From assembly GCA_022565795.1 (NCBI GenBank), contig JAIUMA010000007.1, forward strand, positions 1-64,000: a stretch of 64,000 nt of DNA. Reading direction: 5' to 3'. Position 1 is the first letter of the stretch; each line of letters begins with the position of its first letter. Position numbers and translations under genes: made by a program. Source of the DNA: Balneolia bacterium (GTDB lineage Bacteria; Bacteroidota; Rhodothermia; Balneolales; Cyclonatronaceae). The notes beneath the pieces are model-generated. The model was not told the origin of the DNA, ran no database searches, and saw only the letters and a list, made by a program, of their open reading frames with translations. Of the stretch, positions 5,736 through 12,031 are shown piece by piece.

Positions 5736-6851
5736 TCAGGCCTCCTCTTTCGGAAAAACCTCAGGTATGATGCCGTGCTTATTGAGCTCGGTTACTATCA
5801 TCTCGGTTACATCACTCTTGAAGAGAAACTCGTAGCGGATGTCGAGCACATAAGCCTTCACCCTAAGCTTAACCATGTAATGCCGGTTATAGATCTCGTT
5901 CAGCGCTATGATGACTACCGGCTTGTTGAGGTAGAGATAGGGCGAGGAAAAGGCGGCGCGTCTGGCAATGTCTTTGGCGAGCATAACGTCAGCCGTGGCC
6001 GGAATAAATATTTCAGACACAACCTGACAATCCAGCGCGCTGGAGTTGGCGTTGGAAACGGCCCGGTTCATCAGCTCGCCGTTTGGGATGGCAACGGTGT
6101 TATCATCAGGCGTTTCTATGAGACAGCTTCTAATCCCGATGCTTTTTACCTCGCCGTAGTGCTCGCCTACCTGGATTTTGTCTCCGACCTGAAATGGTTT
6201 ATCGAGTATAATCATGATACCGCCAAATATATTCCGGAGTATGTCCTGAGATGCAAAGCCAACGGCAATACCCAGTGAAGCCGTGATAGCAATTACGGTT
6301 TCAATCGGAGGCTCGATTATGCCGGCAATCACTATGTAGATAGCAAAGGACCAAATGGTAATCCGCAAAATCGGCGTGAGTCTTTTGAAGAACAGGCGGT
6401 AGGTCGTGGCTCGCTCGGATAGATTATCCAGGATTTTAATAATAACACGATTTACAATCCAGGTAGCGATTAAAATGATGAGCGCAAGAAAAAGTTTGGG
6501 AAAAGAAATCAGGTTTTGAAGCTCCCGGACTTCTTCATCGAGCTCATTGTCTTCGCCTGCCTCTTCGTCTGATTCGACCTCTTCAGAGTTGGCCTCCCCG
6601 TTAGCATCATCTCCGTTTTCGTTGTTCTCCGGTTCAGGGTTAACAGCAGGTGTGGGTACTTCCAGCGTATCGCTGGAGACAGGTGAGACTGATTGAACAG
6701 GTTGAGTACCGGTTGTCAATTCTGTTTTGCTGTCAGATCCGAACCCCGTGGTGCCCGCGTAGCTCTGCCCGGCAAAAGCTGTTAAGAAGGCCAGAAGCAG
6801 TATGAAGCGGAGAGATGTAAGTGATGGAATACGCATGGTCTGGGCTGGCAT
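5736..6851 (-). CDS. MscS-family mechanosensitive channel
   Basis: A 371-residue small-conductance mechanosensitive channel of the inner membrane. An N-terminal signal-like helix is followed by a periplasmic linker very rich in Asp and Glu (about residues 75-110). Three membrane segments follow, then the conserved pore helix and beta domain (GVGFASQDILRN-like and FQVGDKIQVGEHYGEV). The C-terminal domain is short. Its ATG overlaps the stop of the upstream ATPase gene in a TAATG arrangement, so the two are translationally coupled. The acidic extracytoplasmic stretch is unusual for the family and may respond to ions. Its coupling to the ATPase suggests a dedicated partner rather than a simple osmotic valve; this is inference. 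Confidence 0.9.
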   Translation of the reverse strand: MPAQTMRIPSLTSLRFILLLAFLTAFAGQSYAGTTGFGSDSKTELTTGTQPVQSVSPVSSDTLEVPTPAVNPEPENNENGDDANGEANSEEVESDEEAGEDNELDEEVRELQNLISFPKLFLALIILIATWIVNRVIIKILDNLSERATTYRLFFKRLTPILRITIWSFAIYIVIAGIIEPPIETVIAITASLGIAVGFASQDILRNIFGGIMIILDKPFQVGDKIQVGEHYGEVKSIGIRSCLIETPDDNTVAIPNGELMNRAVSNANSSALDCQVVSEIFIPATADVMLAKDIARRAAFSSPYLYLNKPVVIIALNEIYNRHYMVKLRVKAYVLDIRYEFLFKSDVTEMIVTELNKHGIIPEVFPKEEA

Positions 6852-9800
6852 TAGTGCAATATATTTCGACTTGAAAGCATCTTTGAAACCTGACGGTACA
6901 CGAGATGATTTATCGTGAAACCACGGCTGGTTTCCACAACAAGACCTTTTGCGGAAAGCCGGCCGAGTAAAAGCCTGGCTTCTGCCAAATCGTTGTGCAT
7001 GGCAAAGGAAAGCTCGGCAGCCGTTAAAACATCATGACGAATAAGGGCAGCGAGGGCAAATAGAATATCGCGGGAAGGCGTTTCCAGCGAGTCTATGTCG
7101 GCCAACTCAATCGGGTTCATAACCACGCCGTCATCATCAATCTTCTGAATGGCGTTTACCCAAAAAATCATCGCAATACTAAAATTTCCTTTTGCGGCTT
7201 CTGCAAGTCTGGCGAAGTACTCTTTCTGAAGATATTTCTGTATCTCCTTCTCATTGCCCAAGAGCTTGCGGAATGTCCTTGATCGCTGAATGTCATTAGA
7301 CGGCTTGAAGGTTAGTTCATAGCCTGTAGCGCGATGGCGTAGCAAAATCCCCTTTTCAATCTGCTCGCCTGTAAGGCTGTCGGTACGAAGAACCTGGGAG
7401 AAGAACTGATCGGCACTGAACATTTTCGTGAAGAACTGCCATGCGTTTCCACTGCAGCTTACCACCCAAAACAGTTTGCCGGTAGTCTGGGAGAAGAGCA
7501 CCCAAAACTCTGAAATAGCCTTGTAGCCGTTCACGTTACGTATATACAGATTCTGGAGCCCTTCAAGGATTATCACCCTTTTTTTACGGCTTTTGTGAAT
7601 TTTTTGGATCAAGGCATCGGTATCCTGCGTTTCTGCAAATCCCATCTTTTGGGAGATGATGGCGTTTATTGCTGCAGGATCAAAAAAGGTGTGCTCAAGG
7701 TTGATGTGCACCACGTCCTGCTTCACCGTTTCACTCTGCTTGAAAAAATGAAGCAGAGTGCTTTTCCCGCTGCCTTTCTGACCCGCAATAGCAATGCTCC
7801 AGGGAATCCCCTTATTCCACTGCTCATAGCCTTTATCCAGGTGAAGAAGGTTTCCTGCCGCATCCAGATAGTATTTTTTATCTATCTGGAAAGAGCGCCT
7901 GAATAACCGCTGATAAATAAAAGGCAGCTTTTCATCTGAGGTCTTGTGTTGTAAAAGATATTCTGTTAGCGACAGACGCGCCCGGGCCGAGTCGGTTGCG
8001 CCTTTACCTAATCCCAGATAACGGGATGCGGGCGTATAAACGACGAAAAACTTGCCTCTTGCATATCGCCAGGCAAGCGAGGCTTTATCCTGAGCGACGG
8101 CCGAAAACCGAACAAAGCGTTCTCGCCATCCAAGCGCTCTCTCTTTGGCCTGAAGCGCTTTGTCGCACATTTCAAATTCACTGTAGCGCCGCTCAGAAAT
8201 TAAACGGGAAAGCTTTTGATACGATCTGGGCAGATGCGTCCTGATTTCAGTTTCATACGCGTTTTGTTTCTCGCGAATGCTTTTAATAGACTTTTCAAGC
8301 GTCTGCACCGAGCGTTTGAGTCCGGAAATAGCAATTTCTATGGGTGCGTCTTCTTCTTCTTTTTCGTCAGAGGCCGCAGCTGCCTGCAGGTTGGCATCAA
8401 CAATTTCCGCCGCCTGCTCGATCTCGGCCGCCTGCTCTAAGATGAAGCCGCTGAAATGCTGCGTTTCCGGCCGAACAGGATTAAGCGCCTCGTTTTTGAT
8501 GAAGCGTGAGGCAATGCTTCGCCATTTAAACAGATCGGTTGTGATTTCGGGTAGTGGCATCGCAAAACTTCGCGTCTCAGCCAGCTGAAGCGTCTCGGTA
8601 AAGCTGTTTATTTCCAGCTCCAGATCGGATATGGTTTGCCGGATACTTGTTATGAGCCTTTCCTGAAGCTCTTTGTTCTGCATTCTGGCCAGAGAAGCAT
8701 CCATAAATTCGTTACGAAGCCTGTCTCGGATGGCATCGATTTTCTTAACGCTTTTTACACTGCTTGCGTCCTTTTCGAGCTGTGAGATGAGATCCCGCAA
8801 AAGCTTTACACCACTTTCGGTTGGTATATAGCAGGTGTCACGAAAGAAAACGTGGGTTTCATCCAGAAGGGTTTGAAGCGCACTCTTCAGCTTTGCACCA
8901 AATGATGCGAGCTCGCTGTGGACCTGCAGGTCAGTCAGCTGAGACTGAATATATACATTCCACTTAGAGAGGTTGCGGCGGACATTTTTCCGGGCTGTGG
9001 CCAATAGCTTGTTGAGCTTCGCATCGCTTAGTCGCCCGGAATTAAGCTCTGTGGTGCCTGCTTTTTTTGCTAAACTTATGATGTCATCAAAAGCCTGATT
9101 AAGGGCCGGATTGGTTGAATAATCACCTTCCGTGTATTCTTGAATGCTTTTTATGGCAAGGGTGATGTGCTCAGTAGCGTCATCAAAGAGGGGGCTGGAA
9201 AAAGATGGTTCCGTTTTTGCCGGTTTCTTTTCTTCGCTGCTTTCAGCCGTATCGTCGCTGCTGGCTTCCGGCTTCTTCTTGTCCTGAACGGTTGCGGTTG
9301 CTGCCAATAAGTTGTCCAGAGCTAAAGCAATCCTGGAGTGCTCAAAGCCAAGCGTTTCTGTAGATACGTCCTGCCGGCATAGCAACCCATACTTTAAGAG
9401 AGCTTGAAAGGGAATCTCCTGTGTCCAGAAGTAAGACTTGCCTTTGTCTCTGTGAAGCGCACTGCCTGCCTTGAAAGCCAGGCGCTTGATACTCTTTCGA
9501 AACTTAAGAGTGCGTGAATCCTGAGGCAAACCAGCAAATCGCTCATCACTCTGCAGAGCCAAAAGCTTTTCCGGCTCTTTGGCAATTTCCTCAAGCAGGA
9601 TTTGTTCCCAAACAGCATCCGGCTCACGAAATGAGGGGCTCTTGAGAATAGCTTGCAAGGCCTTTACGGTGTCTTCGAAAAGCTCAGGAATCCGTTCTTC
9701 TGCTCCCTCATGCTCGCGGCGCAATCTGATGATATCGGTGCGAAGCCGGCTTAGCTCTTCCAGCAGCACACCGGCAGTTCTTTGCCGGTACGAGGAAACA

Positions 9801-9877
9801 GCACCGGTGAGGCTTCGCTCAAAAAAATGCGCTATCTGCTCCTGAACCGCCTGGTACGTTACGGGCTTTGCCTTCAT
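6851..9877 (-). CDS. Large P-loop ATPase with coiled coils and winged helix, coupled to MscS
   Basis: A 1008-residue cytoplasmic protein of no family I recognise. The first ~690 residues are helical and charged, with coiled-coil stretches and an acidic low-complexity part near residues 205-225. A P-loop domain follows: Walker A GQKGSGKST near residues 697-705 and Walker B RVIILEGLQNLY near 766. The last ~70 residues (LTAAELSFAMHNDLAEARLL and on) look like a winged helix, as in AAA+/STAND ATPases. The stop overlaps the MscS start by one base, so the products are made together. Thirty-six bases upstream ends the amber-interrupted T9SS gene on the same strand. An ATP-dependent regulator of the channel is plausible but unproven. 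Confidence 0.8.
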   Translation of the reverse strand: MKAKPVTYQAVQEQIAHFFERSLTGAVSSYRQRTAGVLLEELSRLRTDIIRLRREHEGAEERIPELFEDTVKALQAILKSPSFREPDAVWEQILLEEIAKEPEKLLALQSDERFAGLPQDSRTLKFRKSIKRLAFKAGSALHRDKGKSYFWTQEIPFQALLKYGLLCRQDVSTETLGFEHSRIALALDNLLAATATVQDKKKPEASSDDTAESSEEKKPAKTEPSFSSPLFDDATEHITLAIKSIQEYTEGDYSTNPALNQAFDDIISLAKKAGTTELNSGRLSDAKLNKLLATARKNVRRNLSKWNVYIQSQLTDLQVHSELASFGAKLKSALQTLLDETHVFFRDTCYIPTESGVKLLRDLISQLEKDASSVKSVKKIDAIRDRLRNEFMDASLARMQNKELQERLITSIRQTISDLELEINSFTETLQLAETRSFAMPLPEITTDLFKWRSIASRFIKNEALNPVRPETQHFSGFILEQAAEIEQAAEIVDANLQAAAASDEKEEEDAPIEIAISGLKRSVQTLEKSIKSIREKQNAYETEIRTHLPRSYQKLSRLISERRYSEFEMCDKALQAKERALGWRERFVRFSAVAQDKASLAWRYARGKFFVVYTPASRYLGLGKGATDSARARLSLTEYLLQHKTSDEKLPFIYQRLFRRSFQIDKKYYLDAAGNLLHLDKGYEQWNKGIPWSIAIAGQKGSGKSTLLHFFKQSETVKQDVVHINLEHTFFDPAAINAIISQKMGFAETQDTDALIQKIHKSRKKRVIILEGLQNLYIRNVNGYKAISEFWVLFSQTTGKLFWVVSCSGNAWQFFTKMFSADQFFSQVLRTDSLTGEQIEKGILLRHRATGYELTFKPSNDIQRSRTFRKLLGNEKEIQKYLQKEYFARLAEAAKGNFSIAMIFWVNAIQKIDDDGVVMNPIELADIDSLETPSRDILFALAALIRHDVLTAAELSFAMHNDLAEARLLLGRLSAKGLVVETSRGFTINHLVYRQVSKMLSSRNILH

Positions 9878-9913: not shown

Positions 9914-12031
9914 CTATTTAATTAACGTCATTTTTCTGGTGAGGACCTGATTTCCGGCTTCAAGGCGGTAGAAGTAAATACCGCTGGATAGCTGTGTTCC
10001 GTCGAAACGGGCGGCATGCTCTCCGGCCGGAAATGATCCGTTTATCACGACCGAAACGCGCTGCCCCATGCTGTTGTAGACCTCGAGTCTTACTGCTGAA
10101 GCCTCGGGAAGCGAGTAGCGAATCAGCGTGGTCGGATTAAAAGGGTTTGGGTAGTTTTGGGCCAGATAAAACTCATCGGGCGTTTCGATAGGATGTGGCG
10201 GCCCCACCGGCCCCCCGTCATCATTATTGAAAAAGACAACAGGAAGAGCGAGATCTTCTTCTGTAAGGGTGATGACACGGTTGCCGTTTTCACCCGGGCC
10301 GACATCATTGTTTTCCCACCCGTTGTTGGGAAGCGTGCGATCATCTCCGGCTTCTATAAAGAATTTGTACTGCGCTTCTTCTCCGTTGTCACCCTCAATG
10401 GAAAGCTGGGTGGTCCAGATTTCAGGGTTTTCCGGATCAGGAGAGAGCCGGCTTCCGTTTTCCTCGGAAACACTCCAGTCGTTAAAGCTGCCTAAAACGT
10501 GAACCAGATCACCATTTTCCGGCTGAAAAATGAGCATAAGCTGGATACTCATATCAACGCTGAAGATTACATCGCGAATTACAGGCTCAGGTTCGGGCTC
10601 ATCTTCACGCTCACCAAGGCTGCCGTCAGCAAACAGGTTTTGGGCCCAGATTTCACTGCTGCCGTTGCGATTATCCTGCCACGACATAAATACCTCATCG
10701 TCAGCGGCTTTCACGGAGTTCAGGCGAAATTTGCCGGACACAAGGGTCGAGATATCTGCGATTTCATCATCCCAGAACGCCTCCCCCGCAGAGTTAAAAC
10801 GCCTTGCGAGTATCTGGCTCTCGTCCATTCCGGAAAACTGCGTATAGACAATTACCGGATCTTCGTCAAAAACGAACGTGGTAAGTCCGCCAATGTCGTT
10901 ACCTGGAGCTACGTCTACAATGGCTATTCCGTCTTGACCCCAGCTGCGGTCATTATTTTCATCGATTCGTTGACCATAGAGCCCGACTTGGTTTTGTGAA
11001 CCATCCGTCTCTCGCCAGAAGGCGTAGATTGCATGGTCTTCCGGATCGTAGACTGCTTCAATAGAAGATCGTAGCCGTGTTGTATTTAGTGAAACAGGAA
11101 AACCTCCGGAACCAAAGCGCATGGTGCCGTTTGTATGAATTTGCTCCACATAGGACTGAAGGGCTGGCACAGACTGGTACCAGGAAATAAGCACTCCGCC
11201 TAAACCGTCTGAAACCATTTCCGGAAAAATACCCATCTGAAGAGAGCCGCTGGCCATAATTTCCAGCCTGTTGTTGAGACCGCCCCACTGGCGTTGCCCT
11301 TCAGCATTGTAGGCCTAAGCTGAAAGCCGGCCCGGCACGGTTGGCGGGCCTAATGTGCGAAATAGTACGGCATAAATAGAATGACCGTCGGCATTAGTAG
11401 AACGTTTAGTGTCTGATATAGCGAGAAAGACATCCGCAGTTTGAATGTCTTGCCATAATACAGAGCCATCGGGGCCGAGTCCTTTAATGACCGATTGTCC
11501 GTCGCCTGTGAAGGCTACGACCGCACCGCCATTGGGCATGGCCGCAATTTTGGGCGCGTTTATAAAGTCGAATCCTTCACTTACGTTAATTCCGTTCGCT
11601 CCCCAGGGAAATTCGCCATCAGGAGTGATTTTGACTGCTGTAATGCTTTCGACTCCGCTTCGGTCATCGCGGAAGGCAAGCAGAGCATTCCCACCTTCAT
11701 CGGTATCCAGGCCGTAGTCTTCGGTGGATGAAAAACCGCGCTGCGCAACTAGAAGTCCGGTTTCGTCCCATAAAATGTTGCCCGCTGCATCGAGACGCTG
11801 AAGACGGACATCGTAACCGGAAGGGGAGCCTGAAAACCAGCTAATGTACGTGCCACCCTGGGGCAAAAGCGCCATTTTAGGCTGGGCTTGGTCATCATCT
11901 CCGGTGGCAATCGGAAGATTCGATTCGGCATCACCACTCTACTGGGCGTGAACATGAGCAGGACTAAAGGTGAGAGTGAGTGCAACTACGGTCAAAAATG
12001 CAGCGAGCGTGATGCAGGATCTGATGAGCAT
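9914..12031 (-). pseudogene. T9SS-exported repeat protein interrupted by two in-frame TAG codons
   Basis: One frame runs from the ATG at 12031 to the stop at 9914, about 705 codons, without a frameshift but with two internal TAG codons. Residues 1-30 form a clean signal peptide ending in HVHAQ. The first TAG (11939-11941) follows directly. The second TAG (11315-11317) falls between segments ending GRLSA and beginning AYNAEGQRQW. The body carries repeats of the form D.AGNILWDETG and WGQDGIAI, suggesting a propeller-like fold. A carbohydrate-binding-like segment (VHVLGSFNDWS) precedes a C-terminal T9SS type A sorting domain with YPNPFNPTT. Each TAG could derive from a CAG Gln codon by one C-to-T change. 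A recent pseudogene is the simplest reading. Confidence 0.75.

Follow-up and report, generated by a model that had tools for sequence, protein, structure and literature searches.

Gene Pair and Locus

The 64,000-nucleotide window analyzed here (positions 1 to 64,000 of contig JAIUMA010000007.1, assembly GCA_022565795.1, from a Balneolia bacterium of the class Rhodothermia) carries on its reverse strand two adjacent genes, the first encoding a 1008-residue P-loop protein of AAA+-like fold and the second a 371-residue channel of the MscS family (Table 1). Both open reading frames (ORFs) have the sizes and positions given in an earlier account of this DNA made from its letters alone (the sequence-only reading), and the TAATG overlap described there is present, the junction CAC TAA TG CCA having one base common to the stop of the first gene and the start of the second. 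The same account proposed that the AAA+ protein, which it called an ATPase, is a dedicated partner of the channel; this is strongly supported by the co-occurrence of the two genes, their joint loss, the reversal of their order, and the fusion of relatives of the AAA+ protein to transporters.

Conservation of the Pair

A whole-protein search matched 31 of 60 relatives, and in these the MscS gene lies directly 3' of the AAA+ gene wherever the contig continues. Three profiles were used for wider searches: A1, covering the C-terminal 430 residues of the AAA+ protein; A2, for MscS; and A3, a broader profile of the AAA+ family. A1 matches occur across Rhodothermia and phylum-wide, as well as in a Blastocatellia metagenome-assembled genome (MAG), a Myxococcales MAG, and Aquimarina. 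Homologs with strong E-values are found in 100 of the 245 genomes of class Rhodothermia, where the gene is usually single copy and its presence is stable within clades. A3 matches were obtained in 8 of 199 genomes in the phylum of the Blastocatellia locus and in 70 of 189 in that of the Myxococcales locus, the latter with up to three copies each.

We counted 125 loci with the AAA+ core; one genome enters twice (L051, L105), and the weak P-loop-only matches L109, L124, and L158 were left out. A same-strand MscS gene adjoins the AAA+ gene in 119 of these loci, and because this recurs across at least three phyla, adjacency far beyond chance is confirmed. The earlier account had allowed that the homologs might rarely be found next to channels, and the survey gave the opposite result. 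The other six loci comprise L239, which has a weak MscS-like neighbor, L044 and L126, which lie at contig ends, and the exceptions L123, L235, and L240. No fusion of MscS and the AAA+ protein in a single polypeptide was noticed among the fetched loci.

Among 77 pairs measured, the spacing falls within −20 to +20 bases in 63, and overlaps of 1 or 4 bases occur in 22. The order AAA+–MscS is found in 56 of these pairs and MscS–AAA+ in 21; the reversed order characterizes the Rhodothermales-like half of the class, where the pair is intact. Flanking genes vary from clade to clade, with conserved neighbors of the pair in one family, and paralogous pairs occur within one genome. In five Rhodothermales-like loci (L136, L141, L144, L145, and L219) a second MscS gene, of the unlinked type, is found immediately upstream of the pair in divergent orientation. 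Two loci, L211 (G193) and L217 (G183), encode strongly diverged short AAA+ cores (30–50 bits) that adjoin or overlap MscS genes of 166–172 bits and may represent another branch of the family.

The A2 search of Rhodothermia identified 100 genomes with a member of the MscS subfamily at 294–508 bits, the next-best locus scoring 158 bits and most others about 100 bits or lower. Both partners are present in 97 of the 245 genomes and neither in 142, while three contain only the one and three only the other (Fisher p = 2e-60, which is only indicative owing to the relatedness of the genomes). All six single-partner cases are at contig ends (L212, L214, L215, L216, G090:C37:60, and G115:C68:3). In 25 genomes lacking the AAA+ gene the top MscS score is at most 103 bits, as against 294–508 bits for linked MscS. 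The trees of the partners also co-vary, with r = 0.70 compared to a maximum of 0.66 in 500 within-class partner shuffles, and MscS partners group by regulator class. MscS and the AAA+ protein are thus one evolutionary unit: co-inherited, co-lost, and co-diverging. Genes of an operon may remain neighbors over long periods, and two unrelated genes might be co-transcribed by chance or from a shared promoter; however, the reversal of gene order, the clade-specific flanks, the joint loss, the pairwise co-divergence, and the paralogous pairs in one genome make mere co-transcription extremely improbable.

Fusions to Transporters

The helical arm and core of the AAA+ protein form the C-terminal part of much longer proteins in other Bacteroidota and in Acidobacteriota and Myxococcota. 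The N-terminal part is a CPA2-type cation/proton antiporter domain at 22 loci (PF00999, E 1e-18 to 4e-21; TIGR00932) and an SLC12-type cation-chloride cotransporter at nine (PF00324, 1e-49; TIGR00930, 3e-116; SLC12, 7e-7). The MscS gene follows the fused forms in nearly all loci. Free and fused forms have homologous arms of approximately 500–600 residues (hhalign E mostly 1e-13 to 1e-27, with one of 9e-7); helical repeats may inflate these scores, but most arm matches are co-linear over 430–560 columns. For the pooled Acidobacteriota and Myxococcota set hhalign detected no arm homology, and several Myxococcota forms have a signal peptide and transmembrane (TM) segments upstream of the core instead of the arm. 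These matches show that the AAA+ protein belongs to a family also joined covalently to transporters of the K+/H+ and cation-chloride types. Since its members are fused to transporters, a role in origin binding or helicase loading is unlikely.

Many antiporter-fused forms are encoded in one operon together with another CPA-like protein, TrkH and TrkA, or all of these; this additional CPA-like protein was called by a custom profile, and Pfam gave no match for the two that were tested. The operons of L114–L119, L221, L230, and L258 combine a CPA antiporter–AAA+ fusion with MscS and TrkH/TrkA, some including the second CPA-like protein, and resemble a complete cluster for K+ homeostasis. A CorA gene (Mg2+ transporter type) adjoins or is near the pair in L110, L111, and L211, and L110 contains two further MscS genes downstream. 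Two of the exceptional loci also belong here. L123 (G302) encodes a weak 808-residue AAA+ homolog beside a free PF00999 antiporter and a 231-residue hydrophobic protein without an MscS match, perhaps the parts of the fusion as separate genes. L240 (G785) has an antiporter–AAA+ fusion without MscS, and the next stretch is a short low-complexity repeat region (LTDLVRLW...); its channel gene may have been lost.

Build of the AAA+ Protein

The helical N-terminus, the Walker A motif GQKGSGKST, and the C-terminal winged helix of the sequence-only reading are all found in the sequence and the AlphaFold model (mean pLDDT 88). In that model the first ~620 residues are mostly helical and are followed by an alpha/beta P-loop core and then by the winged helix. 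No TM segment is found in the window protein by hydropathy, and the AAA+ protein of this lineage is predicted to be soluble. Core and winged helix together match ORC/Cdc6-type AAA+ proteins over ~400 columns (Foldseek, best E 3e-7, others weaker; TM-scores on the targets about 0.3–0.5), and the family profile A3 also matches Cdc6/ORC chains. A lid precedes the winged helix in the model (elements of residues 930–1008), and a family profile matches the MarR-type winged-helix protein YusO (E 2e-6). The AAA_22 match exceeds its Pfam cut-off and was taken as a generic P-loop match. Zeta_toxin was rejected as an identity, its match spanning just 39 residues around Walker A and being read in the same way.

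The motifs are less regular than the fold. The window protein satisfies the Walker A consensus GxxGxGK[ST], and the lysine is retained in its lineage; the Rhodothermales-like clade mostly has R instead (GSGRTS), and L110–L113 have A, I, T, or N at this position. The Walker B proposed earlier, RVIILEG, is present as a motif-like strand, but E772 is its sole acidic residue and the usual second, catalytic acid is absent; in relatives the residue after the Walker B acid is mostly G, N, S, or D. With a single acid in Walker B we do not claim catalytic membership, and the window protein is described as AAA+-like by fold. The replacement of the Walker A lysine in whole lineages likewise makes the label "ATPase" uncertain. 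Together, the Walker A losses and the single-acid Walker B argue against a universal ATP-driven motor, and the protein looks more like a nucleotide-binding switch.

These features bear on another possible role, in which the protein would be an assembly, localization, or turnover factor for the channel and the fused transporters and not a regulator of gating. AAA+ proteins often remodel or assemble complexes, and the long helical arm of the AlphaFold model could scaffold one. However, covalent fusion to transporters and a degraded Walker A are more in keeping with a stable subunit of fixed stoichiometry than with a catalytic remodeler, and we regard an assembly factor as unlikely.

The sequence-only reading had described an AAA+/STAND build and considered a defense module. 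The AAA+ part of that description holds, as an ORC/Cdc6-type AAA+ core with a winged helix. As for STAND, matches to nSTAND models are under the cut-off and occur in some relatives only, and no C-terminal repeat sensor typical of STAND was found, the helical arm being N-terminal. The AAA+/STAND-like core with its winged helix, together with weak Foldseek matches of the model to NLR and Apaf-1 folds, would suit a sensor that opens the channel and depolarizes infected cells in phage defense or abortive infection. Yet the pair is stably present within clades, has conserved neighbors in one family, and is linked to TrkH/TrkA, antiporters, and CorA; a search of phage and plasmid records returned no match, and PADLOC matched no system, giving weak P-loop or winged-helix matches only. 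The defense proposal was therefore not borne out, and we consider it very unlikely.

The Linked MscS Subfamily

The channel has the beta domain and pore-lining TM3 of MscS (PF00924, 73 bits against a cut-off of 20.2), and its model matches solved MscS structures (Foldseek E 5e-15). According to the model, a signal peptide and a disordered acidic extracytoplasmic segment precede three TM helices, the beta domain, and the cytoplasmic cage. The acidic stretch, also described in the earlier account, is located at about residues 31–100; as a defining feature of the subfamily it was rejected, since it is kept in the closest relatives only.

A motif in the TM1–TM2 cytoplasmic loop distinguishes linked MscS proteins (85–99% of 89) from unlinked ones (0–19% of 47). 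In addition, the cytoplasmic domain contains residues specific to linked MscS: E234, D250, S303, K310, K332, Y334, D337, R339, E341, and T349. The window channel belongs to a distinct MscS subfamily with its own cytoplasmic residues, and the loop and cytoplasmic positions specific to linked channels would be the natural candidate docking surface for the AAA+ protein.

Contact at such a surface might also carry signals in the reverse direction, with the MscS cage sensing crowding or tension and the AAA+/winged-helix protein serving as the output, for instance on DNA or on another partner. In favor of this, the core is similar to that of ORC/Cdc6 proteins, in which the winged helix is a DNA-binding element, and the cytoplasmic domain of Escherichia coli MscS has been reported to bind FtsZ (PMC4440785). 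In the fused forms, however, the AAA+ module is anchored to transporters in the membrane, which makes ion flux the nearer output, and signaling in this direction seems quite unlikely.

Table 1. Position and basis of the features of the AAA+–MscS gene pair in the window.
Feature	Position	Strand	Basis
AAA+ regulator gene, 1008 aa, first of pair	6851..9877	-	ORF; homologs in class and other phyla
Long-helix arm, residues 8-620, no TM segment	8018..9856	-	AlphaFold; hhalign to arms of fused relatives
ORC/Cdc6-type AAA+ core, residues 640-925	7103..7960	-	AAA_22 over cut-off; Foldseek; A3 profile
Walker A GQKGSGKST, residues 699-707	7757..7783	-	Sequence
Walker B-like RVIILEG, residues 767-773, sole acidic residue E772	7559..7579	-	Sequence and alignment
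C-terminal winged helix, residues 930-1008, conserved tail RNILH	6854..7090	-	Model secondary structure; YusO profile match
TAATG stop/start overlap of AAA+ and MscS genes	6849..6853	-	Sequence
MscS-family channel gene, 371 aa	5736..6851	-	MS_channel_2nd E 2e-20; Foldseek MscS E 5e-15
Signal peptide region (residues 1 to ~32) and acidic disordered extracytoplasmic tail (~31-100)	6552..6851	-	Hydropathy; low pLDDT 31-100
Subfamily motif, TM1-TM2 cytoplasmic loop: E146, R152, L153, K156, P160	6372..6416	-	Linked vs. unlinked MscS
Cytoplasmic domain with subfamily-specific residues, candidate docking face	5778..6179	-	Linked vs. unlinked MscS

Upstream of the pair, a gene for a secreted protein of the type IX secretion system (T9SS) type ends 36 bases before the AAA+ start and, as the sequence-only reading had it, is interrupted. 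The gene (9914–12025, reverse strand) contains two in-frame TAG codons, one after the signal peptide (...HVHAQ*) and one at ...GRLSA*; these aside, one open frame runs through to the sorting domain. It is either a young pseudogene or a case of amber read-through. The T9SS gene was rejected as a member of the conserved unit, as the upstream genes differ in relatives beyond the nearest one.

Proposed Function

We propose that the pair is probably a two-gene osmotic-release module, in which an MscS-family valve is accompanied by its own cytosolic AAA+ governor of osmotic and K+ flux that docks on MscS. The association of the genes is established by the linkage described above, and we infer a mechanism of gating that would run as follows. 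The AAA+ protein would sit on the cytoplasmic cage and the TM1–TM2 loops of the MscS heptamer, where its P-loop core would respond to nucleotide state or to some other signal in the cytosol (K+ or ionic strength, for example), and the governor would alter the tension needed to open the channel. Its resting role would most likely be to hold the valve shut, preventing leakage of K+ and solutes, and to free it under stress. In the fused forms, the transporter would be linked to the valve, avoiding simultaneous uptake and release. Given the loss of the Walker lysine in several lineages and the missing catalytic acid of Walker B, a slow nucleotide-binding switch would be expected, not a motor. There is a precedent in TrkA–TrkH: with ADP the cytosolic partner shuts the channel, and with ATP it opens it (PMC6987127).

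Several observations weigh against the proposal of a dedicated governor. An adjoining MscS gene is missing from three loci, two of which have none (L240, and L123, where an antiporter is found beside the AAA+ gene), while in L235 it is about 2 kb away. A minimal form, reduced to core and winged helix, is found in genus g8 and L107, and since the arm is absent there it is not strictly required. Furthermore, many related genomes do without the pair.

More broadly, a single AAA+ governor family with an ORC/Cdc6-like core may plug into unrelated transporters (MscS, CPA2, SLC12-type, and Trk neighbors) and coordinate uptake and release of K+ and osmolytes according to nucleotide or ionic state. This would be a previously unrecognized class of ion-flux control, with some MscS channels governed by a ligand rather than purely gated by tension; we see the chances of this wider proposal as evenly balanced. 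The means by which cells tune valves such as MscS, the textbook case of tension gating, and keep them from leaking is an open question, for which the conserved partner gene offers a direct genetic handle on the channel. The free and fused forms of the partner suggest that a single regulator family runs emergency release as well as uptake and antiport in lineages of the Bacteroidota type and in acidobacterial and myxobacterial ones. If this is true, it would be the first function for a family without its own Pfam or NCBIfam model.

Comparison with Known Systems

Neither Pfam nor NCBIfam has a model that covers the arm or names the AAA+ family. No description of the pair was found in open-access full text; subscription papers and preprints were outside the scope of that search, and the fused transporters may have been noted before.

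The window channel has the same fold as E. coli MscS, with three TM helices, the beta domain, and the cage; to our knowledge, the E. coli protein lacks an AAA+ partner of its own. Membrane tension is what gates E. coli MscS (PMC4560390). ORC/Cdc6-type AAA+ initiators have a similar core fold and winged helix, but the window family differs in its long helical arm, its weakened catalytic motifs, and its genetic and covalent links to transporters.

Two other kinds of MscS-type channel serve as comparisons for regulation beyond tension. Cyclic-nucleotide-gated members of the MscS superfamily (bCNG) are under ligand control, as we propose for the window channel; their ligand domain is fused to the channel, whereas the window pair encodes a separate AAA+ protein next door. 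MscK of E. coli is an MscS-family channel needing K+ beyond tension for gating; unlike the window pair, it has no AAA+ partner and its regulation lies inside the channel polypeptide.

A parallel in principle is RCK-gated K+ uptake by TrkH–TrkA and KtrB–KtrA (PMC6987127, PMC5449183), in which a cytosolic nucleotide-binding partner is likewise encoded with an ion channel, and fused relatives of the window AAA+ protein sit beside TrkH and TrkA themselves. The window partner is instead an AAA+ protein with a helical arm and a winged helix, the domain scan giving no TrkA_N/RCK match for it, and the channel is an MscS. The comparison points to an ion channel with a cytosolic nucleotide-binding regulator, a principle already known from TrkA–TrkH, realized here in an apparently undescribed combination of AAA+ protein and MscS.

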